A DNA stretch of 64,000 nucleotides from positions 3,906,001 to 3,970,000 of the forward strand of contig JAHRBC010000002.1 in the NCBI GenBank assembly GCA_022702545.1, given 5' to 3'. The notes under the pieces were generated by a model. That model ran no database searches. It was not told the DNA's origin and saw only the letters and a program-made list of their open reading frames with translations. A program made the position numbers and the translations under genes. Below, piece after piece: positions 1-63,552 of the stretch; position 1 is the stretch's first letter; each line of letters opens with the position of its first letter. Source of the DNA: Phycomyces nitens (Eukaryota > Mucoromycota > Mucoromycetes > Mucorales > Phycomycetaceae).

Positions 1-3000
1 ACTGAGACCAAGTTGCAGGAAGATATCACTACTGAATCTGAAGTTGTCAAGACCGAGGCCAAGACCAGCATTGGTGAGACCCTTAGCCGTGCCATCTTTG
101 GTTCCGCTGCCGCTGTCGCTGGAACCATTGGCTTGTCCAAGTTGACCAAGGATAAGACTACTACCGAGGAAGTTGTCACTTTCGAGACCACCGAAACTGT
201 CATCGACAACACCAGAACTGAGATTAGCAACTGGTTTACAAAAATGACCAGCCAAGTGATCACAAAGTCGGAGACTAAGAAGACAGAAGACGTTACCGTA
301 GTTGTCGAAAACTATCGTAAAGAGTTGACTGTTATCGTTGAGCGCGCTAGAGTTGAAGGTGTTAAGCATTGCAATTCGAAGCAAGAACGCGAGCAATATC
401 TGGCGCAGTTGACTGTTATTGAGTCTGTTGCTACTACACAGACTTTACAGGTTGAACATGTTGTTATCAAGGCCATTGAAGAGGATGTTGATGTTAAATC
501 CCAGCTCGAGTCGTTGATTGTAACAAGCACAGAAAAGATTAACGAAGGTTTTGAGAAGATCAAGTCTCAAGTGAAGTTTAGCTCTGTTGTTCATGCTGAG
601 GAAGTTGTTGAGAAGACCAAGAAGGCCGCTTCTGCTGTTGAAGCCAAGCGTGTTGCTGCCACAAGCTGGTTCTCTTCCCTTACCGACCGCATCAACACTC
701 GCATCCAGGAAGGTGGTGACAATGTCAAGGAGGACATTACCAAGATTACCGAGAAGGCTGAAGAGGAGATCAGCACTGTCTTGAAGGAGGAAGACGAGGA
801 GGAAGACGAGACTGTCAAGGGATCTGTTGGCACCGCTTTGGTTTCCATCAAGGACTCCATCGCTGCTCAGTTGACTCAGGTCAAGAACGTCATCACTGAA
901 ACCACCGATACCACTGCTCTCCAAGAGAAGTTCACCAAGGTTTCCGAGAAGACCAAGCAGGAGATCGATACCACCTTCACCACTGTTACTGACAAGGTCC
1001 AAAACGATGGTAAGTACTTTGAATATTTTATTCTATTTGTAATATTTATTAACATTAATATATTATAGTCAAGCGCACTGAGAAGGAGAAGTTCACAGTC
1101 AAGGCTGTTGAGACCGCCGTTGTCGATACCACCAAGGAAGCATCTGAGACCGTTCAGAACTGGTACAGCAACCTGACCACCAAGCTGTCTACTCTCGTCG
1201 GTAACGACTCTGAGGAGGCAAAGGCTGAGGCCCAGGTTATCATTGCCGAAGCCGAGGTCGAATTGAAGGAGAAGATCGAAGTTCTCAAGGAGACTTCCAA
1301 GACTGAGTCCAAGACCGAGAGCAACGAGCATTTGGATTCGTACTTCAGCAAGATCACTGATACTGTCAAGAACCAATTGACCGCTGTCAAGACTGCTGTC
1401 GCAGATAATGCTTTCCAGGATCAAACTGTCTTTGAAGAGTCCGTAAAGAAGACCGAGACCAAATTGCAGCAAGATATCACCACTGAATCCGAAGTTGTTA
1501 AAACTGAGGCTAAAAAGCAGAGTCTTTCCGAGACTCTTGGAAAAGTTGTTCTGGGATCGGCTGTTGTAGCTGCGGGTATTTTTGGTGCTGTGTCTTTGAA
1601 CAAGAAGCATGATGAGAAGAAGGCTGCTGAGATCAAGAAGCAAAAGGCTACCGAAACAAAGGAGGTCATCACGTTTGAAACTACCGAAACAGTAATCGAA
1701 AACACAAGAACCGAGATTACTAGATGGTTCTCGACAATGACAACCCAAGTCGTGACGAAGTCTGAGACAAAGAAGACCAGCGATGTTACTGTTACTGTCA
1801 AGCAATACCGCAAGGAGTTGTCTGTCATTGTAGAGCGTGCTCGTGTAGAGGGTGTGAAGCACTGCACTACAAAGAAGGAACGCAAGGAATACTTGGATCA
1901 ATTGGTTATCATTGAGCGCCTTGCCGCATCTCAAACTACTGAGGTTGAGAAGGTTGCCATCCAAGCAATTGAGGAAGACACCGATGTGAAGTCTAAGATC
2001 GAAACTCTTGTCAAGACCACCACTGAGAAGATCAACGAACACTTCGATGAGCTCAAGTCTGCCATCACCTTTACTTCAGTTGTTCATGCCGAGGAAGTTG
2101 TTGAGAAGACCAAGAAGGCCGCTTCTGCTGTTGAAGCCAAGCGCGTCGCTGCCACTAGCTGGTTCTCTTCCCTTACCGACCGTATCAACACTCGCATCCA
2201 GGAGGGTGGTGACAATGTCAAGGAGGACATTACCAAGATTACCGAGAAGGCTGAAGAGGAGATCAGCACTGTCTTGAAGGAGGAAGACGAGGAGGAAGAC
2301 GAGACTGTCAAGGGATCTGTTGGAACCGCTTTGGTTTCTATCAAAGACTCCATCGCTGCTCAATTGACCCAGGTCAAGAACGTCATTACCGAGACCACCG
2401 ATACTTCTGCTCTCCAAGAGAAGTTCACCAAGGTTTCCGAGAAGACCAAGCAGGAGATCGATACCACCTTCACCACTGTTACTGACAAGGTCCAAAACGA
2501 TGGTAAGTACTTTGAATATTTTATTCTATTTGTAATATTTATTAACGTTAATCTATTATAGTCAAGCGCACTGAGAAGGAGAAGTTCACAGTCAAGGCTG
2601 TTGAGACCGCTGTTGTCGATACCACCAAGGAAGCTTCTGAGACCGTTCAGAACTGGTACAGCAACCTGACCACCAAGCTGTCTACTCTCGTCGGTAACGA
2701 CTCTGAGGAGGCAAAGGCTGAGGCCCAGGTTATCATTGCCGAAGCCGAGGTTGAATTGAAGGAGAAGATTGAAGTTCTCAAGGAGACTTCCAAGACTGAG
2801 TCCAAGACCGAAAGCAACGAGCATTTGGATTCGTACTTCAGCAAGATCACTGATACAGTCAAGAACCAATTGACCGCTGTCAAGACTGCTGTTGCAGAGA
2901 ACGCTTTCCAGGATAAGACTACTTTCGAGGAGTCTGTTAAGAAGACTGAGACCAAGTTGCAGGAAGATATCACTACTGAATCTGAAGTTGTCAAGACCGA

Positions 3001-5992
3001 GGCCAAGACCAGCATTGGTGAGACCCTTAGCCGTGCCATCTTTGGTTCCGCTGCCGCTGTCGCTGGAACCATTGGCTTGTCCAAGTTGACCAAGGATAAG
3101 ACTACTACCGAGGAAGTTGTCACTTTCGAGACCACCGAAACTGTCATCGACAACACCAGAACTGAGATTAGCAACTGGTTTACAAAAATGACCAGCCAAG
3201 TGATCACAAAGTCGGAGACTAAGAAGACAGAAGACGTTACCGTAGTTGTCGAAAACTATCGTAAAGAGTTGACTGTTATCGTTGAGCGCGCTAGAGTTGA
3301 AGGTGTTAAGCATTGCAATTCGAAGCAAGAACGCGAGCAATATCTGGCGCAGTTGACTGTTATTGAGTCTGTTGCTACTACACAGACTTTACAGGTTGAA
3401 CATGTTGTTATCAAGGCCATTGAAGAGGATGTTGATGTTAAATCCCAGCTCGAGTCGTTGATTGTAACAAGCACAGAAAAGATTAACGAAGGTTTTGAGA
3501 AGATCAAGTCTCAAGTGAAGTTTAGCTCTGTTGTTCATGCTGAGGAAGTTGTTGAGAAGACCAAGAAGGCCGCTTCTGCTGTTGAAGCCAAGCGTGTTGC
3601 TGCCACAAGCTGGTTCTCTTCCCTTACCGACCGCATCAACACTCGCATCCAGGAAGGTGGTGACAATGTCAAGGAGGACATTACCAAGATTACCGAGAAG
3701 GCTGAAGAGGAGATCAGCACTGTCTTGAAGGAGGAAGACGAGGAGGAAGACGAGACTGTCAAGGGATCTGTTGGCACCGCTTTGGTTTCCATCAAGGACT
3801 CCATCGCTGCTCAGTTGACTCAGGTCAAGAACGTCATCACTGAAACCACCGATACCACTGCTCTCCAAGAGAAGTTCACCAAGGTTTCCGAGAAGACCAA
3901 GCAGGAGATCGATACCACCTTCACCACTGTTACTGACAAGGTCCAAAACGATGGTAAGTACTTTGAATATTTTATTCTATTTGTAATATTTATTAACATT
4001 AATATATTATAGTCAAGCGCACTGAGAAGGAGAAGTTCACAGTCAAGGCTGTTGAGACCGCCGTTGTCGATACCACCAAGGAAGCATCTGAGACCGTTCA
4101 GAACTGGTACAGCAACCTGACCACCAAGCTGTCTACTCTCGTCGGTAACGACTCTGAGGAGGCAAAGGCTGAGGCCCAGGTTATCATTGCCGAAGCCGAG
4201 GTCGAATTGAAGGAGAAGATCGAAGTTCTCAAGGAGACTTCCAAGACTGAGTCCAAGACCGAGAGCAACGAGCATTTGGATTCGTACTTCAGCAAGATCA
4301 CTGATACTGTCAAGAACCAATTGACCGCTGTCAAGACTGCTGTCGCAGATAATGCTTTCCAGGATCAAACTGTCTTTGAAGAGTCCGTAAAGAAGACCGA
4401 GACCAAATTGCAGCAAGATATCACCACTGAATCCGAAGTTGTTAAAACTGAGGCTAAAAAGCAGAGTCTTTCCGAGACTCTTGGAAAAGTTGTTCTGGGA
4501 TCGGCTGTTGTAGCTGCGGGTATTTTTGGTGCTGTGTCTTTGAACAAGAAGCATGATGAGAAGAAGGCTGCTGAGATCAAGAAGCAAAAGGCTACCGAAA
4601 CAAAGGAGGTCATCACGTTTGAAACTACCGAAACAGTAATCGAAAACACAAGAACCGAGATTACTAGATGGTTCTCGACAATGACAACCCAAGTCGTGAC
4701 GAAGTCTGAGACAAAGAAGACCAGCGATGTTACTGTTACTGTCAAGCAATACCGCAAGGAGTTGTCTGTCATTGTAGAGCGTGCTCGTGTAGAGGGTGTG
4801 AAGCACTGCACTACAAAGAAGGAACGCAAGGAATACTTGGATCAATTGGTTATCATTGAGCGCCTTGCCGCATCTCAAACTACTGAGGTTGAGAAGGTTG
4901 CCATCCAAGCAATTGAGGAAGACACCGATGTGAAGTCTAAGATCGAAACTCTTGTCAAGACCACCACTGAGAAGATCAACGAACACTTCGATGAGCTCAA
5001 GTCTGCCATCACCTTTACTTCAGTTGTTCATGCCGAGGAAGTTGTTGAGAAGACCAAGAAGGCCGCTTCTGCTGTTGAAGCCAAGCGCGTCGCTGCCACT
5101 AGCTGGTTCTCTTCCCTTACCGACCGTATCAACACTCGCATCCAGGAGGGTGGTGACAATGTCAAGGAGGACATTACCAAGATTACCGAGAAGGCTGAAG
5201 AGGAGATCAGCACTGTCTTGAAGGAGGAAGACGAGGAGGAAGACGAGACTGTCAAGGGATCTGTTGGAACCGCTTTGGTTTCTATCAAAGACTCCATCGC
5301 TGCTCAATTGACCCAGGTCAAGAACGTCATTACCGAGACCACCGATACTTCTGCTCTCCAAGAGAAGTTCACCAAGGTTTCCGAGAAGACCAAGCAGGAG
5401 ATCGATACCACCTTCACCACTGTTACTGACAAGGTCCAAAACGATGGTAAGTACTTTGAATATTTTATTCTATTTGTAATATTTATTAACGTTAATCTAT
5501 TATAGTCAAGCGCACTGAGAAGGAGAAGTTCACAGTCAAGGCTGTTGAGACCGCTGTTGTCGATACCACCAAGGAAGCTTCTGAGACCGTTCAGAACTGG
5601 TACAGCAACCTGACCACCAAGCTGTCTACTCTCGTCGGTAACGACTCTGAGGAGGCAAAGGCTGAGGCCCAGGTTATCATTGCCGAAGCCGAGGTTGAAT
5701 TGAAGGAGAAGATTGAAGTTCTCAAGGAGACTTCCAAGACTGAGTCCAAGACCGAAAGCAACGAGCATTTGGATTCGTACTTCAGCAAGATCACTGATAC
5801 AGTCAAGAACCAATTGACCGCTGTCAAGACTGCTGTTGCAGAGAACGCTTTCCAGGATAAGACTACTTTCGAGGAGTCTGTTAAGAAGACTGAGACCAAG
5901 TTGCAGGAAGATATCACTACTGAATCTGAAGTTGTCAAGACCGAGGCCAAGACCAGCATTGGTGAGACCCTTAGCCGTGCCATCTTTGGTTC
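1..5992 (+). repeat. Tandem duplication inside the giant gene, 2,944-bp period
   Basis: Bases 1-3048 reappear at 2945-5992 (offset 2,944), covering two repeat units with both introns. By eye I see no difference until base 3049/5993, although I did not check every base. This is a recent duplication or conversion within the array, or an assembly duplication. The other units (from 5506, 6956, 8404, 9887 and 11338) are clearly related but more diverged in their central part. Confidence 0.85.
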
Positions 5993-8900
5993 AGCTGCCG
6001 TTGTCGCTGGAACCATTGGCTTGTCCAAGTTGACCAAGGATAAGAAGACTACTGAGGAAGTTGTTACTTTTGAGACTACCGAGACCGTCATCGAGAACAC
6101 TAGAACTGAGTTGACACAGTGGTTTACCACTATGACTACCCAGGTCGTGACCAAGTCGGAGACAAAGAGAACAGAGGATGTAACAATCGTAGTCAAGAAC
6201 TACCGTAAGGAGCTGACTGTTATTGTCGAGCGCGCTCGAGTTGAAGGTGTGAAGCACTGCACAACCAAGAAGGAACGCAAGGAGTACTTGGCCCAGCTTG
6301 CTACAATTGAGCATGTCGCTTCTACTCAAACATTCGAAGTCGAAAAGGTTGCCATTCAGGCAATTGAGGAAGACACCGATGTGAAGTCGAAGATTGAGAC
6401 TCTTGTCAAGACCACCACTGAGAAGATTAACGAGCGTTTCGATGAGCTCAAGTCTGCCATTACCTTTACTTCAGTTGTTCATGCCGAGGAAGTTGTTGAG
6501 AAGACCAAGAAGGCCGCTTCTGCTGTTGAAGCCAAGCGCGTCGCTGCTACTAGCTGGTTCTCTTCCCTTACCGACCGTATCAACACTCGCATCCAGGAAG
6601 GTGGTGAAAATGTCAAGGAGGACATTACCAAGATTACCGAGAAGGCTGAAGAGGAGATCAGCACTGTCTTGAAGGAGGAAGACGAGGAGGAAGACGAGAC
6701 TGTCAAGGGATCTGTTGGCACCGCTTTGGTTTCTATCAAAGACTCCATCGCTGCTCAATTGACCCAGGTCAAGAACGTCATCACCGAGACCACCGATACT
6801 TCTGCTCTCCAAGAGAAGTTCACCAAGGTTTCCGAGAAGACCAAGCAGGAGATCGATACCACCTTCACCACTGTTACTGACAAGGTTCAAAACGATGGTA
6901 AGTACTTGGAATATTTTATTGTATTTGGAACATTTTTAACATTAATATATTATAGTCAAGCGCACTGAGAAGGAGAAGTTCACAGTCAAGGCTGTTGAGA
7001 CTGCCGTTGTCGATACCACCAAAGAAGCTTCTGAGACCGTTCAGAACTGGTACAGCAACCTGACCACCAAGCTGTCTACTCTCGTCGGTAACGACTCGGA
7101 GGAGGCAAAGGCCGAGGCCCAGGTTATCATTGCCGAAGCCGAGGTTGAATTAAAGGAGAAGATTGAAGTTCTCAAGGAGACTTCCAAGATTGAGTCCAAG
7201 ACCGAAAGCAACGAGCATTTGGATTCGTACTTCAGCAAGATCACTGATACAGTCAAGAACCAATTGACCGCTGTCAAGACTGCTGTCGCAGAGAACGCTT
7301 TCCAGGATAAGACTACTTTCGAGGAGTCTGTTAAGAAGACTGAGACCAAGTTGCAGGAAGATATCACTACTGAATCTGAAGTTGTCAAGACCGAGGCCAA
7401 AACCAGCATTGGTGAGACCCTCAGCCGTGCCATCTTTGGCTCTGCTGCCGCTGTCGCTGGAACCGTCGGACTTTCTAAGTTAACCAAGGACAAGAAGGTC
7501 GCAAAGAAGGAGACTACAACTTATGAGGCTACTGATATTGTGGTTGAGACTACCAAGACTGAGGTGACAAAGTGGTTCTCAACTTTCACTAGCGAAGTGG
7601 TGTCCAAGTCAGAGACCAAGAGAACGGAAGAAGTCACTGTCGTCGTGGAAAGGTCTCGTAAAGAGTTGAATGTTATTCTCGAACGCGCGAGAATTGAAGG
7701 TGTAAAGCATTGTTATACCGAGGTTGAGCGTCAAGAGTATCTTTCACAGTTGACGGTTATTGAGCAGACCGCTTACGTTCAAACTACCAAGGTCGAGCAG
7801 ATTACTATTCAGGCCATTAAGGAGGATACTGATGTTAGAAGCCAAATTGAGACTCTTGTGAAGGAGAGCACTCAGTCTATTAATGAAGGATTTGAGCAAC
7901 TGAAGTCCCGTATTACATACCACTCTGAAGTACGCGCTCAGGCTATTGTTGAGAAGACCAAGAAGGCCGCTTCTGCTGTTGAAGTCAAGCGCGTCGCTGC
8001 TTCTAGCTGGTTCTCTTCCCTTACCGACCGTATCAACGCTCGCATCCAGGAAGGTGGTGAAAATGTCAAGGAGGACATTACCAAGATTACCGAGAAGGCT
8101 GAAGAGGAGATCAGCACTGTCTTGAAGGAGGAAGACGAGGAGGAAGACGAGACTGTCAAGGGATCTGTTGGAACCGCTTTGGTTTCTATCAAAGACTCCA
8201 TCGCTGCTCAATTGACCCAGGTCAAGAACGTCATTACCGAGACCACCGATACTTCTGCTCTCCAAGAGAAGTTCACCAAGGTTTCCGAGAAGACCAAGCA
8301 GGAGATCGAGACCACCTTCAACACTGTTACTGACAAGGTTAAGACTGATGGTAAGTTTTTTATTCTTTTATTTTCCTGGTTTTGATTCTAACATTTTCAA
8401 TAGTTAAACATACAGAAACTGAGAAGGTGACTGTAAAGTCTAACGACACTATCTATGTTGACACTGTCGAGGTTGATAATACAACCAAGAAGGCCACGGA
8501 GACTGTTGAAAGCTGGTATAGCAACCTCAAGACAAAGTTGTCTACTCTTGTCGATCGTGACAGTGAGGAAGCAAAGGCCGAGGCCGAAGTTATTATTGCT
8601 GAAGCCGAAGTTGAATTGAAAGAAAAGATTGAAGTTTTGAAGGAAACTTCGAAGAGCAATACCAAGACAGATTCCACTGAACACATTGATTCTTACTTTG
8701 GTCAAATCACGAATACTGTAAAGAATCAGTTGACTGCTGTCAAGACTGCGGTATCTGAGAATGCTTTCCAGGACAAGACTACTCTCGAGAACTCTCTTAA
8801 CAAGACTGAGACCAAGCTGCAGGAAGAGCTTGCTACGCATACCGAAGTTGTCAAGACCGAGGCCAAAAAGAAGACCATTGGAGAGACTATTGGTAACGTC

Positions 8901-11900
8901 GTTCTGGGATCAGCTGCAATTGCAGCTGGTGTCATTGGTGTCATTGGAATTACGAAGAAGCACGATTCCGAGAAACCTAAGAAGACTGAAGAAGTTACTT
9001 TTGAGACTACTGAGACCGTAATCGAAAACACCAGATCTGAAATCAACAAGTGGATCTCTGCCATGTCTACCCAGGTTGTGACCAAGTCTGAAACCAAAAA
9101 GACTGAGGAAGTTACCGTCGTTGTCAAGAACTACCGCAAGCAGTTGACTGTCATTGTGGAGCGCGCTAGAGTTGAAGGCGTTAAGCATTGCACTACAAAG
9201 AAGGAGCGCAAGGAATATCTTGCACAGCTTGTTGTAATTGAACGTCTTGCCACAACTCAGACAACAGAGGTTGAGCAAGTTGCAATTCGTGCTATCGAAA
9301 CTGATACTGATGTAAAGAGTCAAATTGAAACACTTGTCAAGTCCACTACCGAGAAGATCAACGAACATTTTGATGATCTCAAGTCGACAATTACCTTTAC
9401 TTCAGTTGTTCATGCCGAGGAAGTTGTTGAGAAGACCAAGAAGGCCGCTTCTGCTGTTGAAGCCAAGCGCGTCGCTGCTACTAGCTGGTTCTCTTCCCTT
9501 ACCGACCGTATCAACACTCGCATCCAGGAAGGTGGTGACAATGTCAAGGAGGACATTACCAAGATTACCGAGAAGGCTGAAGAGGAGATCAGCACTGTCT
9601 TGAAGGAGGAAGACGAGGAGGAAGACGAGACTGTCAAGGGATCTGTTGGCACCGCTTTGGTTTCTATCAAAGACTCCATCGCTGCTCAATTGACCCAGGT
9701 CAAGAACGTCATTACCGAGACCACCGATACTTCTGCTCTCCAAGAGAAGTTCACCAAGGTTTCCGAGAAGACCAAGCAGGAGATCGATACCACCTTCACC
9801 ACTGTTACTGACAAGGTTCAAAACGATGGTAAGTACTTGGAATATTTTATTGTATTTGGAACATTTTTAACATTAATATATTATAGTCAAGCGCACTGAG
9901 AAGGAGAAGTTCACAGTCAAGGCTGTTGAGACTGCCGTTGTCGATACCACCAAAGAAGCTTCTGAGACCGTTCAGAACTGGTACAGCAACCTGACCACCA
10001 AGCTGTCTACTCTCGTCGGTAACGACTCTGAGGAGGCAAAGGCCGAGGCCCAGGTTATCATTGCCGAAGCCGAGGTCGAATTGAAGGAGAAGATCGAAGT
10101 TCTCAAGGAGACTTCCAAGACTGAGTCCAAGACCGAAAGCAACGAGCATTTGGATTCGTACTTCAGCAAGATCACTGATACAGTCAAGAACCAATTGACC
10201 GCTGTCAAGACTGCTGTTGCAGAGAACGCTTTCCAGGATAAGACTACTTTCGAGGAGTCTGTTAAGAAGACTGAGACCAAGTTGCAGGAAGATATCACTA
10301 CTGAATCTGAAGTTGTCAAGACCGAGGCCAAGACCAGCATTGGCGAGACCCTTAGCCGTGCCATCTTTGGTTCCGCTGCCGCTGTCGCTGGAACCATTGG
10401 CTTGTCCAAGTTGACCAAGGATAAGAAGACTACTGAGGAAGTTGTTACTTTTGAGACTACCGAGACCGTCATCGAGAACACTAGAACTGAGTTGACACAG
10501 TGGTTTACCACTATGACTACCCAGGTCGTGACCAAGTCGGAGACAAAGAGAACAGAGGATGTAACAATCGTAGTCAAGAACTACCGTAAGGAGCTGACTG
10601 TTATTGTCGAGCGCGCTCGAGTTGAAGGTGTGAAGCACTGCACAACCAAGAAGGAACGCAAGGAGTACTTGGCCCAGCTTGCTACAATTGAGCATGTCGC
10701 TTCTACTCAAACATTCGAAGTCGAAAAGGTTGCCATTCAGGCAATTGAGGAAGACACCGATGTGAAGTCGAAGATTGAGACTCTTGTCAAGACCACCACT
10801 GAGAAGATTAACGAGCGTTTCGATGAGCTCAAGTCTGCCATTACCTTTACTTCAGTTGTTCACGCCGAGGAAGTCGTAGAGAAGACCAAGAAGGCCGCTT
10901 CTGCTGTTGAAGCCAAGCGCGTCGCTGCCACTAGCTGGTTCTCTTCCCTTACCGACCGTATCAACACTCGCATCCAGGAGGGTGGTGACAATGTCAAGGA
11001 GGACATTACCAAGATTACCGAGAAGGCTGAAGAGGAGATCAGCACTGTCTTGAAGGAGGAAGACGAGGAGGAAGACGAGACTGTCAAGGGATCTGTTGGA
11101 ACCGCTTTGGTTTCTATCAAAGACTCCATCGCTGCTCAATTGACCCAGGTCAAGAACGTCATCACTGAGACCACCGATACTTCTGCTCTCCAAGAGAAGT
11201 TCACCAAGGTTTCCGAGAAGACCAAGCAGGAGATCGATACCACCTTCACCACTGTTACTGACAAGGTCCAAAACGATGGTAAGTACTTTGAATATTTTAT
11301 TCTATTTGTAATATTTATTAACGTTAATCTATTATAGTCAAGCGCACTGAGAAGGAGAAGTTCACAGTCAAGGCTGTTGAGACTGCCGTTGTCGATACCA
11401 CCAAGGAAGCTTCTGAGACCGTTCAGAACTGGTACAGCAACCTGACCACCAAGCTGTCTACTCTCGTCGGTAACGACTCTGAGGAGGCAAAGGCCGAGGC
11501 CCAGGTTATCATTGCCGAAGCCGAGGTCGAATTGAAGGAGAAGATCGAAGTTCTCAAGGAGACTTCCAAGACTGAGTCCAAGACCGAAAGCAACGAGCAT
11601 TTGGATTCGTACTTCAGCAAGATCACTGATACAGTCAAGAACCAATTGACCGCTGTCAAGACTGCTGTTGCAGAGAATGCTTTCCAGGATCAGACTACTT
11701 TCGAGGAGTCTGTTAAGAAGACTGAGACCAAGTTGCAAGAAGATATCACTACTGAATCTGAAGTTGTCAAGACCGAGGCCAAGACCAGCATTGGCGAGAC
11801 CCTTAGCCGTGCCATCTTTGGTTCAGCTACCGCTGTCGCTGGAACCATTGGCTTGTCCAAGTTGACAAAGAACTCCAAGGATACTAAGGTTATTAACACT

Positions 11901-14900
11901 GGTGATGTTGTTGTTACATACGAGACTGCCGACTCTGTTATTGAGAAGACCCGAACTGAGATTACCAAGCGTTTCACGACCATGACTACTCAAGTCATCA
12001 CTACTTCTCGTACCAAGAAGACCGAGGAAGTTACTGTTGTTGTCGAGAGTTACCGCAAGGAGCTTACCGTCATCATCGAGCAGGCTAGAACTGAAGGTGT
12101 CAAGCACTGCACAACCAAGAAGGATCGTGAAGAGTACCTTGCTCAGCTCGCTATCATTGAGAAGACCACATCCACTCAGACTGTTGAAGTTGAGCATGTC
12201 GCTATTCAAGCCATTGAAAGTGACACTGATGTCAAGAGTCAGCTCGAGACATTGGTTAAGTCCACTACACAGAAGATTAACGAGCATTTCGACGAACTCA
12301 AGTCCCGTGTCACATTTACTTCTGTTGTCCACGCTGAGTCTGTTGTGCAAAAGACCAAGAAGGCTGCTTCTATTGTTGAAGCCAAGCGAGTTGCTGCCAC
12401 TAGCTGGTTTGCTTCTCTCACTGACCGTATCAACACTCGCATCCAGGAAGGTGGTGAAAATGTCAAGGAGGACATTACCAAGATCACCGAGAAGGCCGAG
12501 GAAGAGATCCACACTGTCTTGAAGGAGGAAGACGAGGAGGAAGACGAGACTGTCAAGGAATCTGTTGGCAGCGCTTTGGTTTCCATCAAGGACTCCATCG
12601 CTGCTCAGTTGACCCAGGTCAAGAACGTCATCACTGAGACTACTGATACTTCTGCTCTCCAAGAGAAGTTCACCAAGGTTTCTGAGAAGACCAAGCAGGA
12701 GATTGATACAACCTTTGCCACTGTGACCGAAAAAGTCAAAACGGATGGTAAGTAGTTGAATATTCTTTTATTAATTTGATAACTAATTTGTTTCTGGTTA
12801 TTAGTCAAGCGCACTGAGAAGGACAAGGTTTCTATCCAAGTTGAGGATGTCGAAGTTGTAGATACAACTGTTGTTGATACTACAAAGAAAGCCAACGAGA
12901 CCGTCAAGAGCTGGTATACCAACCTCAAGACCAAGCTTTCTACCCTTGTTGATCGTGACAGCGAGGAAGCCAAGGTCGAGGCTGATGTGATTATTGCCGA
13001 AGCTGAAATCGAGCTGAAGGAGAAGATCGATGAGTTGAAGAAGACCTCTAAGACTGACTGTACTTCAGAATCCACTGAGCATGTTGAATCTTACTTTGGT
13101 AAGCTTACAAACAGTGCCAAGGAGCAGTTGACTGCCGTCAAGACCGCTGTGTCCGAGAACGTTTTCCAAGACAAGACTACCTTTGAGGAAACCATGACCA
13201 AGAACGAGACAAAGTTGCAGGAGGAGATTACTTCCCATACTGAGGTTGTAAAGACTGAAACCAAGAAGAATAGCCTTGGAAAGCAGCTTGGAAAGGCTGT
13301 TTTGACCTCTGCTGCCGTGGCTGCTGCCGCTGCCGTTGCTTACTCTACCTACAAGGATCACGAAGAGAATAAATCCGAGGCAATCAAGATTGAGCAAAAG
13401 GTTCAAGTTGTTGAGAAATCAACTGTCGAAGAAGTCCAGAAGACTGTAAATGTCTGGTACACAACATTGACTGAGAAGATCATTGTTCGTACCCAGCAAG
13501 GTGGAGAGAATGTTGCCCGCGATGTTAGTGAGATTGTTGACGAGGCACAGGAGGACCTGAACAAGACATTGAAGAAGGTTCAGCACGGTTGTGTCGAAAA
13601 ATCGGAGAACAGACAGTCTTTCTACAAGACCATTGAATGGATTCGCACAACTACCGTAACTCAGACTACCCAGATCAAGACCCTGGTTACCGAAAGCTCT
13701 ACCAGCTCTGTAACATTGAAGAACCAGATCGAGAACTACACTCTGATTTCCAAGAAGCAGCTCGAGAAGGCCCTTGCTGTTCATATTAGTTCCGAATCGA
13801 CCAAGGTTACCAAGGGCACTGATGAAAAGACAGTTGTTGTTCTTCAGGAGACCCGTGAGCAGACCATCAAGCGTACTCGTGTTGAAGTCCAAATCGTTGT
13901 TGAGGAGACCAAGACTACCCTTACCCGCTGGCTCGACACCCTTCACGAAGACATTCGTGTTGTTACCCGTCGTGGTGGTCCCAATGTCAGACAGGAAGTT
14001 ATTACTCTTATTACCGAAGCCGAGAAGAAGAAGGCCATCTTGATCCAAGAGGCCAAGTTGAAGTTTGTGTCGATCGATCAAACCTCTGCTACTTCCCAGA
14101 CCACTACTGAAGTTACAACATTGGTGACAACAGCCCACAAGCAGGCCCTCGATTGCATTGACAACGTAAACACTACCATGGATTTCCAGATTACACTTGT
14201 AAACGAAGCAGTCAGCCGTGTTGATGTTGAAGAATACCAAGTCGTAGAAGAGAGATTGACCACCATTATCACTCGTACCAAGGAGCGCGTTTTCCATATT
14301 CTTGATACTGCCACCCGCACTGCTATCAGCACTGCTTTTGAAGGCAAGACTGCCACCTGGGTTGAGACTTCTGAGCTTCCCAAAGCATTCGACAATGTCC
14401 GTGCGTTTGCTTTCGATGTAGTTGATACTGTTGTTGATTACCGCAAGACACTCTCTGTTACATGGCAAAAGATTGTTTTGAGCAAGAAGGAATCAAAGTT
14501 GTCCCAATTTGATTTCAACTCGTTTGTCGCTCGTTGGTATACTCTATTCCACCAGCACAAGATCAATCATGCCAATGCAACTGATGATGAAGCTATCCGT
14601 TCTGTTCTTATCTGTGAACTCAAGGCTGCCCATATTGAAAATCTGCTCTCTGAAACCGATATTGAGCAGCTTATTGTCAGCTGGCATAACCTGGTTTTGT
14701 TTGGCGAATCTACTTCTTCCATTCACCGCATCAAGAAGCAACAGACTGTCCGTTACAAGACTGTTGCCATCTCAGATACTCTCTCTACTTCGTCCATGGT
14801 CGATCTTGCCATGAGTGGTTGTATGTGCTGGCATGCCCAGTTCTCATCTGAAATGTTTGGTCAGTCCAAATCAGCCGCCGAGACCTTGGTGACTGGAACA

Positions 14901-15209
14901 TCTCGATTCCTTGGACTCCAGAGCCCTCAACAGCTTGCCGTTGTCTCTGCCAGCCATCGCGTCCTCGATGCTGCCAAGAAGGCTGGTTCCCTTACCATTC
15001 TTGTCCAGCGTGGTGATTCCACCCATACCACCCATACCACTGCCGAATATGACCTTGAGATTGACGGTTTGGATGTTCTCGCCGAAAGTGTTCAAACTTT
15101 CTTGGAGCACAAGCAAGTTACTATTGACCATGAAACAAAGCCTGCTCGCGGTTGGTTCCAAAGAGTGATCTCAAAGACTGCTGATGCTTTTGATGGAATT
15201 GTCGGCTAA
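1..15209 (+). CDS. Giant modular repeat protein with C-terminal HAD-like domain (5' end outside window)
   Basis: I do not recognise a named family. The coding sequence enters the window in frame 1 and joins ten exons: 1-1009, 1069-2502, 2562-3953, 4013-5446, 5506-6897, 6956-8350, 8404-9828, 9887-11278, 11338-12747, 12805-15209. This gives 4,895 residues plus stop. All nine introns are 53-59 bp, phase 1, and sit at the same place in the unit. Each exon encodes one ~465-478-residue unit with three W-anchored helical segments (NWYSNL..., NWFTKM... and SWFSSLTDRI...), an acidic EEDEEEDE tract and a Gly/Ala-rich hydrophobic stretch that could be a membrane segment. Heptad-like spacing suggests long alpha-helices or coiled coil. 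The last exon has diverged repeats and then a haloacid-dehalogenase-like fold from about 14385. The conserved blocks look strongly codon-biased, the variable blocks less so. Start unknown; function unknown. A structural or membrane-organising role is inference only. Confidence 0.9.
14385..15150 (+). other. Degenerate HAD / 2-haloacid dehalogenase-like domain of the giant protein
   Basis: Seen in the last exon. Motif I is FAFDVVDTVVDYR, with the putative nucleophile Asp codon at 14415-14417. It aligns with the FDxxGTLxD motif of type II haloacid dehalogenases, but the usual Gly is Asp. A SWHNLVLF...LSTSSMVDLA stretch corresponds to the motif II region, FSSEMFGQSK keeps the motif III Lys context, and SASHRVLDAAKKAG followed by ILVQR matches the motif IV region. 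A YDLEIDGLDVLAE tail matches the usual end of the fold. Several catalytic positions look altered, so the domain may be a pseudoenzyme. The family assignment is from pattern recall, without a search. Confidence 0.7.
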
Positions 15210-15388
15210 ATGCCTTGAATTTGATTAGTTTAGTTCATATCTTAGCTTAGTCTATCATGAATAGTTGTTTTATTATATTGAAGTGCAATTATACGCAATA
15301 AAATTTGAATGAAACACATATATTTTGTTGATGTCTTTGGTCAATGTAGTAGAAGATTATTATTATTATATGATTTATTACAGCCTAA

Positions 15389-16784
15389 TCAGACATCCTT
15401 GTCTTTTGTTTGATTCAATTGATATACTTCGACGGTTTGGTCTATTAATCCAAGCACAAGTTCGTCTTGACCATCTGCGTTTACATCGCCCATTGTCATG
15501 GCATGAGGCCAATCTGCGGTTGTAATCTCCCCAATTTTCTAATAAATCCGTGAGTTCATCGTTTATTAGATAATGATAGTTTACCTTTCCACGGTGATAT
15601 ATAAAAACGGCATTTGTTTGGCCAGCACATATTATAATATCCGGCTCTTCTTCAAGAAGCCACGGTGGACGGAATGTGAGGATGCTGGTCAGACAAACTC
15701 CAACTTTAAACCACAAATGTGCCTATCAATATGTGTTATGAAATATAGCGTTTGATCTTATTTCTTACCTCATAATTAACCAAAATATAAACATTTCCGT
15801 CTTGGCCAGCTAACAATACTTGTTTTGAATGTATTTTTGAATCAGGACCGGCATGGATCTTTGCGGGAGGCTGATTACTTAATAATCTTTCTGTAGAAGT
15901 TGTGAGGAAATGGCCTGCACACATCTTTAGAGACTTGGTTAACAAGGTGGAATTAGACATTAATTGCATTGACCTACTGAATGGATAACTGAAGGTACGC
16001 GCAAGGTCATAATTTTTTCTCCTTCTTGTACAAAATGGACAAGTGGCCAGCCATCGCATACAAGTAGACAAGACACATCTAACCCGAATTGATCTTTTAA
16101 AGTAGTCGATAATACACATCGAATATAAGGAGACCGTCTTCCTGCGGTTTGTAAAGTAGCTAATTTTGCCGACTCCTCTGCGATGTTCAACTTCCATAAA
16201 GCATCGTGTTGCTGAAAACTGGTAAGAGTGCCGTGCATATCGCCTGCAATTATCTCATATCCCCCAACTTGATGTGGATTGTATATTAATAAATAGAAGC
16301 AAGAATACAATAGAAATGTACCTTGATCCTCATAAATCTCGATTTGCATAACTGCAACACCCAACTCGCGCTTACTGAGGATCTGCTGGCGAGAAAACAA
16401 GGTCACTACACCATCAGAGTCCCCAACAACCAAGTCAAGCGCGCCATAGCCTGTTAAATCGTGTAATTTGAGAGCTTGTATAGAATTTCCTTTGGTGTCC
16501 AAGAGGCCCTCTACAGGCTGTCATTTGGAGATTAATATCTGAATGACCGATTGTGTTTGTACCTTTGTCTGATTCAAAATGAGTACACGTCCAGCAGTAG
16601 TCCCCACCAACACATCATTCTCCTCGCTCAATTCTTCCAGAAATGGCTTTCCGACAGCTAGGCAGTTGATAGGGTCGTCAAGTTGGCTTGCCCAAAGCTT
16701 TTCGTAGCAAAGGCGCCAATGGTTAGCATCATTCAGATCCATGATGTATGTGTCTTTGGGAAAGCCTTTAGAAGCACAAGTCAC
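15389..16784 (-). CDS. FG-GAP / beta-propeller protein (ITFG2-like?)
   Basis: Six exons on the minus strand: 16784-16563, 16517-16322, 16267-15978, 15933-15769, 15722-15585, 15538-15389. They join in frame to 386 residues. Repeated blade-like strings of the type GALDLVVGDSDGVVTLF, YEIIAGDMHGTLTSF and GQDGNVYILV, and a last one DVNADGQDELVLGL, are FG-GAP/propeller signatures with Ca-loop-like Asp runs. The general pattern recalls ITFG2, a subunit of the KICSTOR complex that recruits GATOR1 to lysosomes, but this is a tentative match. A second in-frame ATG (16742) is an equally good start. The 5' end is only 47 bp from the divergent IMPACT-family gene, and the 3' end converges on the giant gene with 179 bp between stops. 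Confidence 0.7.
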
Positions 16785-16831
16785 AGTTCTTCATTTTTTT
16801 TCCCCTCTGCATTCCACCTTTCACTCAAACA

Positions 16832-17392
16832 ATGCTTCCCTCTTGTTCTGTTAGAGCCAGAGGATTCTATATTTCCAAACGCTGGTTGAGTTCTCAGAAC
16901 GATATTCCAATCTACTCTAGCAAAGAGCCTTTGGTTGATAGAAAGTCTGTTTTTGTAGCTCATGTAGCTCAAGTTCAGAATGTAGAAGAAGTCCGAGCAG
17001 TGCGTGCTAGACTACTTCAAAACAAGAAAATTGCAAAGGCCACTCACAATATTATGGCATATCGTATTACAAGTGGACAGAATATTTTGGAAAGGGGTGA
17101 TGATGATGGCGAGACTGCTGCAGGTGGTAAGAAACTATCGATTTGTTTATTATTTTACCCAAGGTTATCTTAGGCCGTCTATTACATCTATTGCAAATGG
17201 CTAATGTGGAAAACGTAATGGTGGTCGTGAGTCGCTGGTTTGGAGGTATATACTTTTGTGTATATATGTACCAGCTTTGTTTATTTATTTGACTATAAAG
17301 GCACACAACTGGGTGCAGATAGATTTAGAGATATCAATAAATGTGCTCAAGTAGCACTCAAGGCGTGTGGGCATATCAAAGGAAAGCAATAA
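16832..17392 (+). CDS. IMPACT/YigZ-family protein (UPF0029)
   Basis: Exons 16832-17126, 17174-17245 and 17301-17392 give 152 residues. The core carries the IMPACT N-domain signature: FVAHVAQVQ, then KATHNIMAYRI, then a DDDGETAAGGR turn, then VMVVVSRWFGGTQLG. In eukaryotes the full IMPACT/Yih1 protein has an N-terminal RWD domain and restrains the Gcn2 kinase. Here the RWD domain is absent, so the protein resembles the short bacterial-type YigZ form. The first ~30 residues are basic and lack acids (SVRARGFYISKRWLSS), which fits a mitochondrial presequence, but that is inference. It shares a very short divergent promoter with the FG-GAP gene. Confidence 0.88.
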
Positions 17393-41665: not shown

Positions 41666-44600
41666 TTAAGCCTTGCGTGGACGTCCTCTTTTTCGAGTAG
41701 GCTGATCCTGAGTAACAGTAGTGACTGTTGTTGCTCTTGATCGTTTTGTTCCCAGTTCAATCGCATTGGAATTTGTAGTCGGTACTTGGTTATCGACTTT
41801 CCTTGGTCGACCTCTCTTACGAATAGGTTGGATGACATTCGGAGTATTGGTGAGCAAAGCTTTAGTTTTTTGCTCCTCTACTCGTTTCCAATATTTTCGA
41901 ATAGGTTCGGGTGATCTAAACTCTCCCGCATGGATCCATGAATTTTCACGCTCCCCTAATCCTTTCCATTTTACCAAGAATAGACGCGAATGTCCTGATC
42001 CTTTATGATCACGGATTTCATCCACTTCTACATATTCATCTTCAATGGCGGTTTCGTCGATATTCACAACCTTTAGTTCTGAAGGAGTATAGTCCCTATG
42101 CAAGAGTTCATTGGTTTCGTCTCTTAATACATAGTTGTTGCTTTCAGTTTTGCGCACCACTACGAATGGTCCTTCAAACAGTGGTGATAATTTTGTGTCC
42201 CTAGACGGTAGTCGTACCATAACTGTTTGTCCCAGTGGTATATCGATCAGATAATGTTTCTTGTTAAACTTTTTATCATATTCTTCGATCAATTGCATTG
42301 TACGTTTCTTTATCGCAGGGAATACCACTGTTGACATTTTCTCGGCACGCTGTAGTAATTCTTCTTCAGTTATACATCTTTTGGTTGTAGACGATTCTGC
42401 GTTGTCGTTAGAGTAATCTCCAACTTTGTTAACTTTTCGAGCGAACATCAGCGAAAATGGGCTTGATCCAGATCTCGTACGGATCTTCAAATTGCAGCAT
42501 AGTTGAGCTGTAGGCAATATTTCATCCCAGTTTCTGAAGTCTTGTCCGCATAATTTACGCAGCGTGTTTGTTATCATCTTGACGCTGGTTTCGGCAATCC
42601 CATTTCCTTGTGGGTAGTAAGCCGTTGAGAACTTATGCTTTATGCCTAGGATTTGTGTAATGGATTGCATCAAGCTGTTTCTGAATTCTCGTCCGTTATC
42701 GGATTGGATAAACCGTCCCACAATCGCAATACCATAATCTCCAAACACCCCAGTCAATGCCTTGGCAACAGTGTCACTTTGTTTGTTTGGTAATGGTCTT
42801 GCGATTATGTATCTGGTTGCTATGTCCACCACCACCAATATGTACATGTTTTGGTTCTCGGTGACAGCAAATGGTCCTGCCAGATCCATCGCAATATGAT
42901 CAAATACATCCCAAGCAACTATGCTTTTCTTAGGATTATATCCACGTTTCACGATGGTATGTTGAGCACAGGGTATACAGCTTGATATTACTTCCTTGCA
43001 TTCTTTATACATTGATGACCAATACACACCATCACTTAGTAATGATCGCACTACTCCTTCTATGCCAAAGTGCCCCATTTTATGAGCTTCTTCCATCAGA
43101 GTTTTTCTGTCTGCTCGCGGTGGAATCAAGTAGTCCAGGGTTGCTTCTTTGAATTGTTCATTGTTGAGTTTTACGGCTAGGATATGTAGGTCTTTGTCTT
43201 TACTATGCACTATTTGTCTTTTGGTAAAGTGCTCTCCTCTTTTCTTAACTGCAGAGGTTGTGTTGTCATCGTGTTCGATGTTCTGCCTTTTAATCATGAT
43301 GTACTTTAGCATCTTACGAATTACTTGATCCTCCTCTTGTTTCTGTTGAATGTCTACTTCAACAGGAGGGTAAAGTCGACTCAGCGCATCTGGTAGGGTA
43401 TTGTCTACTCCTTTGACATAGCTAATTTTGAGTCGCCCATATTCATTGAGAGTATCAACATAATTTTGTAAGTTGCTGGACAGGTAGCTGCTAGAATATA
43501 AATAGATCAGGGCTGAATGATCCGTGCGAATTTCTAAATTTGGATTTCCCAAGAGTAGAGGACGGAATCTTTCTAATCCGAATATAATAGCGTAGATTTC
43601 ACGGCGGTTAGTTGACCACAGCCGTTGGTGTTTGTTTAGAGACTTGGATATGAACGCAATATGCTTGTTACGTCCATCCTCCGCTTTCTGGTACAGAATG
43701 GCAGATATTCCATATAATGATGCATCTGTTTGCATGAAGAACTTTTTGCTCATATCTGGGGCGTGTAAGATTGCACTTGACAATAGTACTTTCTTTATAG
43801 CCTCTAGACATTCTGTATGTTTATCATTCCATTTGGCCTTTACGTTGGGTTCATAGCGCAGTTGATCCAACGGTGCAGTTAACTTGGCACTCATCGGAAT
43901 ATAGTCTCGCATAAAGGTGATGGTTCCCATCAGTTTCCTTACTTGTTCTGCAGACTGACAGATTGGCCATTCCTGAATATTGGACAGTTTTCGGAAATCG
44001 ATCTTTGTAATACCAGGGCCAACTACGAATCCCAAGGTGAAAATTGTTGTTTGGAAAAATTTGCACTTTTGTACATTGAGTTTCAAATTAGCAGCAGTGA
44101 GTTTGTTGATTACTGTTTGTACGAGTTTGGCATGTTGATCAGGAGTACTGAATAGAATACAGTCATCGACATAAGATTCTACACCTTCCGTATCTCCCAA
44201 AATAATTTTAATAACTCGGCAGAACAAACTTGTAATTGTTTTTAATCCAAAGCAACATGCTTGCCACTTATAAGTTTTGTTTTCAAAAGTAAATGAGAGT
44301 ACTTCTTGATCAGACTCTTTAACTTTAAATGAGTGATACGCATTTTTCAAGTCCAACTTTGAGAAAACCATTCCTGGTTTTGCTACCTTTCGAAAGATGT
44401 CTTGAATGCAGTTCACCGCATAGTCTTCTTTATATGAGTCCGAAATATTGACATTAATCCGGCGTAAGTCTTGTACTATACGAAGCTTTGTCAAGGCTCC
44501 ATCATCTCCTTTCTTGGGGATTACCAACAAAGGAGAATTATACCTAGCACTAGGCTCGGCTGGCACAACTAATCCACTCTGTAACCACTCATTAAGTTGC

Positions 44601-46807
44601 TTCTGTATTTCAGGCATGTATTTATAGGGCAACGGGTATTGCCTAATATAACAATTGGTCCCATCTTGTTTCATAGGAATACATACTTCAGAGGCAGGTA
44701 CATTACAGAATGTGCCTGGTTTAATGGCCTCATTCTTTTGAATAGCATCAGAGATATCATTATGGAATTGTTGTTTTTCTATTTCGTTGCCATAATCACT
44801 GTTTTCAGGATTATAGTAATTGTGTGTATCGAAGTTGAGATCTTGGGGCTCTGTCAAGTTCTCTTCGAACTCTATGGGATAGCGATAAGCAATACCCGTC
44901 AATCTAATATCTAGTTTGTCAAATATATCTGTTCCTAGTAATATATCAGCTTCTGCAGCTATATGATCAGGGAAGTCAACAACTTCAAATTGATGAGAGC
45001 AGCGAAAAGGAGCATCGCCATACACCACAGACAATGGTTCTGTACGACCTACTCGCTTAGGATAGCTATTACTCTCGTGTGCAAAGTTTTTTATCACCCC
45101 CTGTACTTGGAAAATTTTTTTGTTTGCAAAATGTTTATTGATTGTGAAGCGATTTATGCAGCTGGTGTCCGCGCCAGAATCGCACATTGCCATAAGCTTG
45201 ATGTGTTCTATGACAATGGGTGTCAGTATCTTTCTACTGGGAGAGCATAATTCCTCTTTGGTTTCGATCAACTTACAATCATCATTGTCATATGGGTCAG
45301 GGTTGGACTCCATGTTCATGGCATCGTTAATCTGCCTCTGGCTTGGTTCTTTAAAGCCACTATTGTTGCTGCCGCTGTTGTTATTGTTGTTGTTGGGGCG
45401 GTTTGGTCTTGGAGCCCATTTGCTCTTGAACAGGCCTTTGCCTGTGGAAGCCATGTTCACCGCAATGTTCTTGTGGAGAACCTTGTTCTCGGGCCTCTTT
45501 TCAGGGTTTGCCAGATAGTATTGCTCGCAAACATGTCCTCGAAAGAACGGGTTGCTGCAGTATCGGCACGCTCGGTCTCTTGGAGCTGTTGCTTCCAAAT
45601 GCCGAGGGCCGTTGTTGGTGGCCCTGAATGGCAGGTTCTTGGCACCCAAGTTGCCTGGTCTGATTATGGCAACTCTGCCTTGCTCTGCCTTTGCCTTCTT
45701 GCTCTGTTGAGCCTGTAGGCAATCTTCTTCGTCGTGATCAGCCGCATACGCGCCATGGTCCGGGCAGAAGAAGTCTCCAGAATTCCCAGTGAACTTCCTT
45801 TTTCCACCCTTGTTTGTGGCCACAATGGCGACCTTCTTGGCAGCCTTGGTTATCTGCTCGACTGTCTTCTCAAAACTCGCATCCTCTGGTTCATTGCTCA
45901 GATTGGTGAATATGAACTGATACCAAGCATGAGGTAGCCCCGACAGAAAGATTTCTGCCAGCGTGGTGTCTTCACCACTGAAGCCCGCCTTTGCGGCTTC
46001 CTTGAGGAATCTCATGGAGTATTCCTCCACGCTCTCACCGTCCCCGATCTTCATGAAGCACATGTTCAAACGTGCTTTGCCCCTGGAGATATTGGAGTTG
46101 AACTTCTCCTCCAATATCTTCTTGGCTTCTGGCCATGTCTTTGCCAGGTCCAACTTATTCTTCACCCAGAAGTCGAACGAAGAATGGAAGGCTACGTTGA
46201 GGTAGAGCTTCCAGCCCTCATCGTTCTCCAGACCTGCCACCCGCAGGAACAACTCATACGCCACCGTGAATGAGTTCACGTCTTCAAACATCACTCTTCC
46301 CGGAAAGTACTCCTTGTTCATGGCCTTGATTTGGAATCTTGGCACATCATCCATCGAAAACGTCAAGTTTCCCTTCTTCGGTCCACTTGACTTAGCGTTT
46401 CCTCCTCGACGCTCGTTTGCTTCCTCCTCTTCCATGGCCTTCTCATCATTGAGAATCTCCAGCCTATTCTTCAAGCGCTTGGCTTGCTCCTGCAGCAAAT
46501 CCTCCTCCCGCAAGCTTTCCTGCGTAGGATTTCCCTGCATTCTCACGAACTTCCGCATGTCCTGTTGGACTTTCTTCAGTTCCTCCTTTGTAGCTTGGAT
46601 ACAGTCATGTACTGACATGACATTCTCCTCGCTGTTCTTCACACCAGAGTTTAACATCTCTCTTTGAGAGTTATCCTCATTCGCAGCTTTAGTCCTCTCT
46701 GTCTGAAGCGTTTCAGTCATCTCTACGTCCTCTGCCATTGATAGCTTAGCTACCTGGCTATTGAGAGCAGCATCAATAACATCTGGCTTTTCGAACTGGT
46801 TGGACAT
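41666..46807 (-). CDS. Gag-Pol polyprotein of the chromovirus
   Basis: A single 1,713-residue frame. Order: coiled N-terminus; Ty3-type capsid (retrotransposon gag) at about residues 170-320; a Cys/His knuckle-like CRYCSNPFFRGHVC; aspartic protease with CDSGADTS near 541; reverse transcriptase with YVDD near 877; RNase H starting FMQTDASLYG near 1027; integrase with an HHCC finger (H-x3-4-H...C-x2-C) and the DDE core (SDNGREF near 1370); then a chromodomain (about 1592-1650, FLVKWKGLGERENSWIHAGE). The protein ends with two AT-hooks, RKRGRPRK, near 1664 and 1706. The chromodomain places it among chromoviruses. No internal stop or frameshift separates gag from pol, so processing presumably relies on the protease. 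Confidence 0.96.
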   Translation of the reverse strand: MSNQFEKPDVIDAALNSQVAKLSMAEDVEMTETLQTERTKAANEDNSQREMLNSGVKNSEENVMSVHDCIQATKEELKKVQQDMRKFVRMQGNPTQESLREEDLLQEQAKRLKNRLEILNDEKAMEEEEANERRGGNAKSSGPKKGNLTFSMDDVPRFQIKAMNKEYFPGRVMFEDVNSFTVAYELFLRVAGLENDEGWKLYLNVAFHSSFDFWVKNKLDLAKTWPEAKKILEEKFNSNISRGKARLNMCFMKIGDGESVEEYSMRFLKEAAKAGFSGEDTTLAEIFLSGLPHAWYQFIFTNLSNEPEDASFEKTVEQITKAAKKVAIVATNKGGKRKFTGNSGDFFCPDHGAYAADHDEEDCLQAQQSKKAKAEQGRVAIIRPGNLGAKNLPFRATNNGPRHLEATAPRDRACRYCSNPFFRGHVCEQYYLANPEKRPENKVLHKNIAVNMASTGKGLFKSKWAPRPNRPNNNNNNSGSNNSGFKEPSQRQINDAMNMESNPDPYDNDDCKLIETKEELCSPSRKILTPIVIEHIKLMAMCDSGADTSCINRFTINKHFANKKIFQVQGVIKNFAHESNSYPKRVGRTEPLSVVYGDAPFRCSHQFEVVDFPDHIAAEADILLGTDIFDKLDIRLTGIAYRYPIEFEENLTEPQDLNFDTHNYYNPENSDYGNEIEKQQFHNDISDAIQKNEAIKPGTFCNVPASEVCIPMKQDGTNCYIRQYPLPYKYMPEIQKQLNEWLQSGLVVPAEPSARYNSPLLVIPKKGDDGALTKLRIVQDLRRINVNISDSYKEDYAVNCIQDIFRKVAKPGMVFSKLDLKNAYHSFKVKESDQEVLSFTFENKTYKWQACCFGLKTITSLFCRVIKIILGDTEGVESYVDDCILFSTPDQHAKLVQTVINKLTAANLKLNVQKCKFFQTTIFTLGFVVGPGITKIDFRKLSNIQEWPICQSAEQVRKLMGTITFMRDYIPMSAKLTAPLDQLRYEPNVKAKWNDKHTECLEAIKKVLLSSAILHAPDMSKKFFMQTDASLYGISAILYQKAEDGRNKHIAFISKSLNKHQRLWSTNRREIYAIIFGLERFRPLLLGNPNLEIRTDHSALIYLYSSSYLSSNLQNYVDTLNEYGRLKISYVKGVDNTLPDALSRLYPPVEVDIQQKQEEDQVIRKMLKYIMIKRQNIEHDDNTTSAVKKRGEHFTKRQIVHSKDKDLHILAVKLNNEQFKEATLDYLIPPRADRKTLMEEAHKMGHFGIEGVVRSLLSDGVYWSSMYKECKEVISSCIPCAQHTIVKRGYNPKKSIVAWDVFDHIAMDLAGPFAVTENQNMYILVVVDIATRYIIARPLPNKQSDTVAKALTGVFGDYGIAIVGRFIQSDNGREFRNSLMQSITQILGIKHKFSTAYYPQGNGIAETSVKMITNTLRKLCGQDFRNWDEILPTAQLCCNLKIRTRSGSSPFSLMFARKVNKVGDYSNDNAESSTTKRCITEEELLQRAEKMSTVVFPAIKKRTMQLIEEYDKKFNKKHYLIDIPLGQTVMVRLPSRDTKLSPLFEGPFVVVRKTESNNYVLRDETNELLHRDYTPSELKVVNIDETAIEDEYVEVDEIRDHKGSGHSRLFLVKWKGLGERENSWIHAGEFRSPEPIRKYWKRVEEQKTKALLTNTPNVIQPIRKRGRPRKVDNQVPTTNSNAIELGTKRSRATTVTTVTQDQPTRKRGRPRKA

Positions 46808-46869
46808 ATTATCACAGAAATTTAGTTTCGTTTTACAGGTATGAAAAGAAATTTAGAAATTGAAAAAAG

Positions 46870-61757: not shown

Positions 61758-63552
<1,795 letters not shown>

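Follow-up and report, generated by a model that had tools for sequence, protein, structure and literature searches.

A giant Phycomyces nitens gene built from unit-sized exons apparently belongs to the Gellin family

The stretch of Phycomyces nitens DNA analysed here (the window, 64,000 nucleotides, C4:3906001-3970000) begins inside a coding region in which exon after exon encodes the same unit, raising the question of what kind of gene is built in this way and how its units arise and persist. A repeat search of positions 1-17000 found nine in-register copies of a 1.45-1.49-kb unit filling the first 13 kb of the window, and the 11 other aligned units share 60-100% identity with unit 22, a level at which chance need not be considered. 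Reading 30 kb upstream and splicing out GT-AG introns, all of them predicted, placed the gene at C4:3885003 to 3921209, with the first in-window base lying 21 kb downstream of its start. The resulting model has 24 exons encoding 11,567 residues (1.29 MDa) with zero internal stops, and 22 of its 23 introns are in phase 1. The preliminary description, made from the window, had proposed a single giant gene with one unit per exon, a start beyond the window and a product that could exceed 500 kDa, all of which agree with the model; its 4,895 in-window residues are likewise exact (4,896 codons, stop included). It had also counted at least nine consecutive exons of the same unit. That run is real, but the full number is 14, namely exons 10-23, each holding one unit, each a multiple of three in length and joined by phase-1 introns. 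Five whole unit exons come before the window, and ahead of them the gene has a further 13.1 kb of other exons with their introns; the in-window part runs from the partial exon 15 to exon 24 (Table 1). A P. blakesleeanus protein matches the last exon at 84% identity across 99% of the exon.

A paralogue of similar architecture was found at C1:6900817-6866928 (-), with nine exons encoding 11,082 residues (1.23 MDa) and phase 1 in all eight introns. Comparison with this gene bears on exon 7 of the 24-exon model, which lies upstream of the window and is probably two exons. Within it, a 54-bp stretch (window coordinates -15670 to -15617) reads through in frame yet looks like a further phase-1 intron; the paralogue carries an intron at the matching site, and the extra residues are absent in every relative readable there (9 of 13 examined, paralogue included). 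With this intron the gene would have 25 exons, phase 1 in 23 of 24 introns and 11,549 residues (1.288 MDa). Exon and residue numbers throughout are those of the 24-exon model. In both paralogues intron 1 is long, at 192 and 225 bp compared with 49-79 bp for all other introns of the two models, and intron 1 of the C4 gene is rich in AT repeats.

Each unit might conceivably be a small gene of its own, as every in-window unit exon sits within an open frame of 475-514 codons that meets a stop at or shortly past the donor site. However, the first methionine occurs at residue 74 or later in each unit exon, unit 20 is free of methionine altogether, and neither ATG nor AATAAA is present in any of the 14 introns that follow unit exons. 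Furthermore, units are fused in the P. blakesleeanus database proteins P0002, P0006 and P0007. Four joins in them all read D-V-K, the residues that predicted splicing gives here; they are database annotations, not RNA reads, and were located using the D-V-K pattern itself. Exon 8 is a single open frame containing the second half of the tenth beta-trefoil and a long helical stretch, and one 25,119-bp exon of the C1 paralogue likewise spans the trefoil end and a helical stretch. We therefore consider separate unit-sized genes extremely improbable.

Table 1 Features of the giant gene within the window (positions counted from the first base of the window).
Feature	Position	Strand	Basis
Exon 15 (unit exon; first 383 bases upstream of window)	1..1009	+	gene model, repeats
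Intron 15, phase 1, 59 bp	1010..1068	+	gene model, intron comparison
Exon 16, one unit (three helical modules)	1069..2502	+	gene model, module profile
Intron 16, phase 1, identical to introns 13, 14, 18, 22	2503..2561	+	intron comparison
Exon 17, one unit	2562..3953	+	gene model
Intron 17, phase 1, identical to intron 15	3954..4012	+	intron comparison
Exon 18, one unit, identical to exon 16	4013..5446	+	gene model, sequence comparison
Intron 18, phase 1	5447..5505	+	intron comparison
Exon 19, one unit	5506..6897	+	gene model
Intron 19, phase 1, identical to intron 21	6898..6955	+	intron comparison
Exon 20, one unit; middle pairs with second unit of P. blakesleeanus P0006	6956..8350	+	gene model, tree
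Intron 20, phase 1, diverged	8351..8403	+	intron comparison
Exon 21, one unit; C-segment silent sites and next intron match unit 19, middle does not	8404..9828	+	gene model, silent sites
Intron 21, phase 1	9829..9886	+	intron comparison
Exon 22, one unit (used for structure prediction)	9887..11278	+	gene model
Intron 22, phase 1	11279..11337	+	intron comparison
Exon 23, last full unit	11338..12747	+	gene model
Intron 23, phase 1, diverged	12748..12804	+	intron comparison
Exon 24: three helical modules, then HAD-like domain and stop codon	12805..15209	+	gene model, module profile
HAD (type II haloacid dehalogenase)-like domain, catalytic motifs apparently degenerate	14358..15182	+	profile matches, motif alignment
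Apparent recent two-unit tandem duplication	1..5992	+	exact repeat at 2,944-bp offset

Elsewhere in the window, a 1,728-codon open frame at 41669-46852 (-) matches reverse transcriptase, RNase H, integrase and chromodomain, and its domain order suggests the polyprotein of a Ty3-type retroelement. A MYST-family histone acetyltransferase (MOZ_SAS, zf-MYST and Tudor-knot matches) is encoded at 61761-63329 (-), and a 632-codon open frame without a Pfam match at E 1e-4 lies at 57644-59539 (+), in a region of strong negative GC skew.

Iterated profile searches revealed ten beta-trefoils in both the C4 gene and its C1 paralogue. Of 22 database relatives, 17 likewise have ten, and the remaining five gave 8 or 9 matches. 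Trefoil 1 of the C4 gene matches PDB 6LCI 'mdaA-1', which we take to be a solved Gellin (Gll) domain, at E 2.7e-65, and the paralogue does so at E 1.1e-69; exon 7, scanned with Pfam, scored above the Ricin_B_lectin (PF00652) cut-off (85.5 bits vs 29). Scoring was confined to candidates whose length was 0.55-1.75 times that of the query and which shared most words, and all 22 relatives obtained in this way bear names of Mucorales or Mortierella kin. In the databases they are called 'hypothetical', 'uncharacterized' or 'unnamed', or ricin B lectin-domain or CBM13 proteins. Gellins are reportedly Mucoromycota proteins with ten beta-trefoil 'Gll' domains, and are not known from outside the Mucoromycota. 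Their trefoils are said to unfold under flow, form sheets and bind membranes, whereupon leaking protoplasm gels after wounding, and wounded hyphae that have lost Gellin are said to bleed. A review states that Mucorales possess Gellin proteins causing protoplasmic gelation on disturbance (PMC12712441). The C4 gene resembles the Gellins in its ten related beta-trefoils and in the 6LCI match of trefoil 1, and the names of the scored relatives would fit a restriction to Mucoromycota; it differs in that the trefoils make up about one-sixth of some 11,550 residues. As ten trefoils together with a 6LCI match are taken as the Gellin signature, the gene apparently belongs to a known family. The preliminary description's view that no named family has this plan is not supported, although a profile search found no curated family for the unit alone at its cut-off.

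At the opposite end of the product, a PDB profile links the last ~275 residues to haloacid dehalogenases and cis-epoxysuccinate hydrolase (E 3e-15). The similarity to type II haloacid dehalogenases and cis-epoxysuccinate hydrolase (TIGR01428; PDB 8wnh, 8wbm, 3umg) extends over most of the domain, but the TIGR01428 match (E 1.3e-10) reaches 41.6 bits, far below the cut-off of 125.4, and the C4 domain terminates a giant protein. In haloacid dehalogenases the motif I Asp is the nucleophile, and the motif IV Asp is a residue of the catalytic motifs. The nucleophile is retained in all seven aligned rows, whereas the motif IV Asp, at a site placed by alignment to PDB chains, is replaced in all seven (V, V, V, F, M, L or I), and the domain looks catalytically dead. 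Trefoils and a HAD-like end occur together in the single database models P0018, P0019, P0025 and P0027 (3,725-4,665 residues), that is, in 4 of the 22 trefoil relatives and 4 of the 6 longer than 3,700 residues; the HAD domain is missing from the models of the other 18, in a set of which 12 of 22 are labelled partial, and from 2 of the 6 long ones.

Between the two ends lies the helical middle. An AlphaFold model of unit 22, built with 12 aligned units as input, is of moderate quality (mean pLDDT 72, pTM 0.35) and predicts 12 helices in three sets of four, so that each unit would consist of three 4-helix modules. A module profile found 57 copies of ~126 residues each in the C4 protein and 14 in the C1 paralogue. 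At least one copy is present in 28 of the 32 sequences examined, P0001 among them being the gene's own last exon; the same profile found none in P0026, P0028, P0029 and P0030. Proline is scarce, with 10 in the 9,180 residues from 2,101 to 11,280. Foldseek returned no significant match to the unit model, the best rows being vinculin, alpha-catenin and talin at E 0.011 and worse, and the VIA rows were a mix of helical bundles. Talin, vinculin and alpha-catenin rods are, like the predicted middle, strings of helical bundles, but no sequence relation to the units is shown and a generic bundle likeness could explain the Foldseek rows.

The C1 paralogue resembles the C4 gene at both ends and is nearly equal in length, yet it is built from different repeats: its 25,119-bp exon consists largely of tandem repeats of 1,317 and 1,824 bp, both multiples of three. 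In the genome searched (11 contigs, 49 Mb), these were the only two multi-trefoil genes seen among the best-scoring candidates, and two other places gave single lectin-like matches.

Returning to the unit array, the nine in-window introns are 53-59 bp long and all in phase 1, as had been described. Conservation of their sequence was described as well, and this holds for part of the set. Among the 14 introns following unit exons, 13, 14, 16, 18 and 22 are identical, 15 equals 17, 19 equals 21 and 12 is close, but 10, 11, 20 and 23 have diverged. We divided the unit into an N, a middle (V) and a C segment, using 181 residues of V for silent sites and its last 146 for trees and identities. Over the 91 pairs formed by the 14 units, the mean fourfold-site difference for N/V/C is 0.348/0.538/0.159 and the mean protein difference 0.225/0.304/0.038. 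In the pair 19 and 21, 35 of 66 silent sites are changed in V compared with 0 of 61 in C, and identical introns follow the two units; in the pair 22 and 23 the counts are 0 of 66 for N and 43 of 74 for V. Because conserved introns go together with near-identical silent sites in the adjoining C-segment, a special intron function is not needed, and the intron conservation is, as these sites indicate, a by-product of recent copying or homogenisation.

Phylogenetic trees of the segments included the 14 units and four of seven P. blakesleeanus pieces, the latter as protein only; P0002_b (last exon) was left out, as were P0006_c and P0007_b, both of which end before the C-segment. In the V tree the four P. 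blakesleeanus units each group with different units of the C4 gene, three of them on starred branches, and the species do not cluster (4 changes of the species label, as low in all 500 shuffles). The C tree separates the species (97/96; 1 and 3 of 500 shuffles as low), and four columns in C, compared with zero in V, are fixed differently between them. Mean C-segment identity is 96.2% within the genome carrying C4, 89.0% between species and 90-92% within P. blakesleeanus. Judged from these comparisons, the parts flanking the splice junctions are homogenised within species, while the middles appear to keep identities older than the species split. The order of units is not kept in every detail, since the third unit of P0006 (P0006_c) matches exon 21 in its N segment (79%), but in the part of its middle that is present it is closer to exon 12 (78%, vs 68% for exon 21).

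A stretch of 3,099 bp that ends at base 3048, and starts no more than 51 bases upstream of the window, exactly matches the sequence 2,944 bp downstream. This exact run fits a recent duplication of two units, unless the assembly is in error, and it supports the earlier suggestion that units can be gained without breaking the frame. A misjoined or duplicated assembly would yield the same exact run, and doubt is highest for exons 15-18. Even so, an artefactual array, or an array with an artefactual copy number, seems quite improbable, as many units have distinct middles and high silent-site divergence, and four have counterparts in P. blakesleeanus. The kringle IV array of apolipoprotein(a) offers a parallel in having tandem intron-bounded units within one gene and frame-neutral changes of copy number, in another protein and organism and with two exons per unit compared with one here.

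From this architecture we propose, with a probability of roughly 0.7, that the window holds the 3' part of a giant Gellin-family gene whose product comprises ten trefoils, 57 predicted four-helix modules and a HAD-like end, with the middle serving as a tether. The helical middle would be a very long, almost proline-free rod or rope linking the trefoils to the C-terminus. With such a length the molecule may sense the pull of cytoplasm jetting out of the cell, pass this tension on to the trefoils and also bridge organelles; the trefoils, if they behave as reported for Gellins, would gel under flow when protoplasm leaks. The near-identical splice-junction regions would seed unequal exchange and gene conversion, by which whole units would be added or removed in frame, making the length of the tether tunable.

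The chief rival to a tether is a membrane coat, in which the helical middle would act in the manner of apolipoproteins and crosslink organelles instead of sensing force, with organelle membranes bound by its numerous amphipathic helices and by the single uncharged Ala/Gly/Val stretch of each unit. Apolipoprotein profiles do match below threshold (P0006 at E 3.1e-5, 24.2 bits vs a cut-off of 90; the last exon of the C1 paralogue at E 0.0056), and the most hydrophobic 19-residue stretch begins at residue 156-165 in 13 of the 14 unit exons. Yet no family reaches its cut-off except for a short HLH match in P0006 (22.8 bits vs 20.7), taken as chance, and the helices are modelled in groups of four. 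Moreover, in 500 shuffles of unit 22 the maximum hydropathy had a mean of 1.26 and a 95% value of 1.83, which only 5 of the 14 unit exons attain, the other nine lying below. We hold the coat to be possible but doubtful.

It is also conceivable, and in our judgement rather unlikely, that the units are passive bulk expanded neutrally by recombination, with only the trefoils and the C-terminus mattering. Their homogenisation and recent duplication are in keeping with this, as are the different repeat that the paralogue carries at the equivalent place and the modest size, just 3,725-4,665 residues, of the four database models with both ends. Bulk of this kind is harder to reconcile with 14 units that are all open and in frame, with a mean protein difference in the C-segment of 0.038 against a silent difference of 0.159, or with the tree of the middles, where each of the four P. 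blakesleeanus units joins particular units of the C4 gene, three on starred branches.

A bolder reading is that Gellins are megadalton ropes under selection for total length. This idea, which we offer speculatively and think unlikely, follows from the two paralogues, which share the same ends, ten trefoils at one and modules with a HAD-like cap at the other, and have reached about 11,550 and 11,082 residues by different repeats, one through 14 intron-bounded exons and the other through alternating 1,317/1,824-bp repeats in a single 25-kb exon. Were it true, how weak a flow can still trigger gelling would depend on the number of units, by analogy with concatemer length in von Willebrand factor, and recombination between exon units would be the means of adjusting it.

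What would be new here, subject to the content of Nguyen et al. 2021 (Curr Biol 31:271), the primary paper on Gellins, is how the gene is laid out, its megadalton size, its degenerate cap and the split way in which its units evolve. Many database models of the trefoil family are fragments, as the partial labels on 12 of 22 indicate. The array provides a clean natural case of concerted evolution that appears centred on splice junctions and that the unit middle escapes. An anonymous repeat array is now the body of a probable wound-gelation protein, and with it one can ask by experiment whether the flow sensitivity of a biological clotting material depends on protein length.
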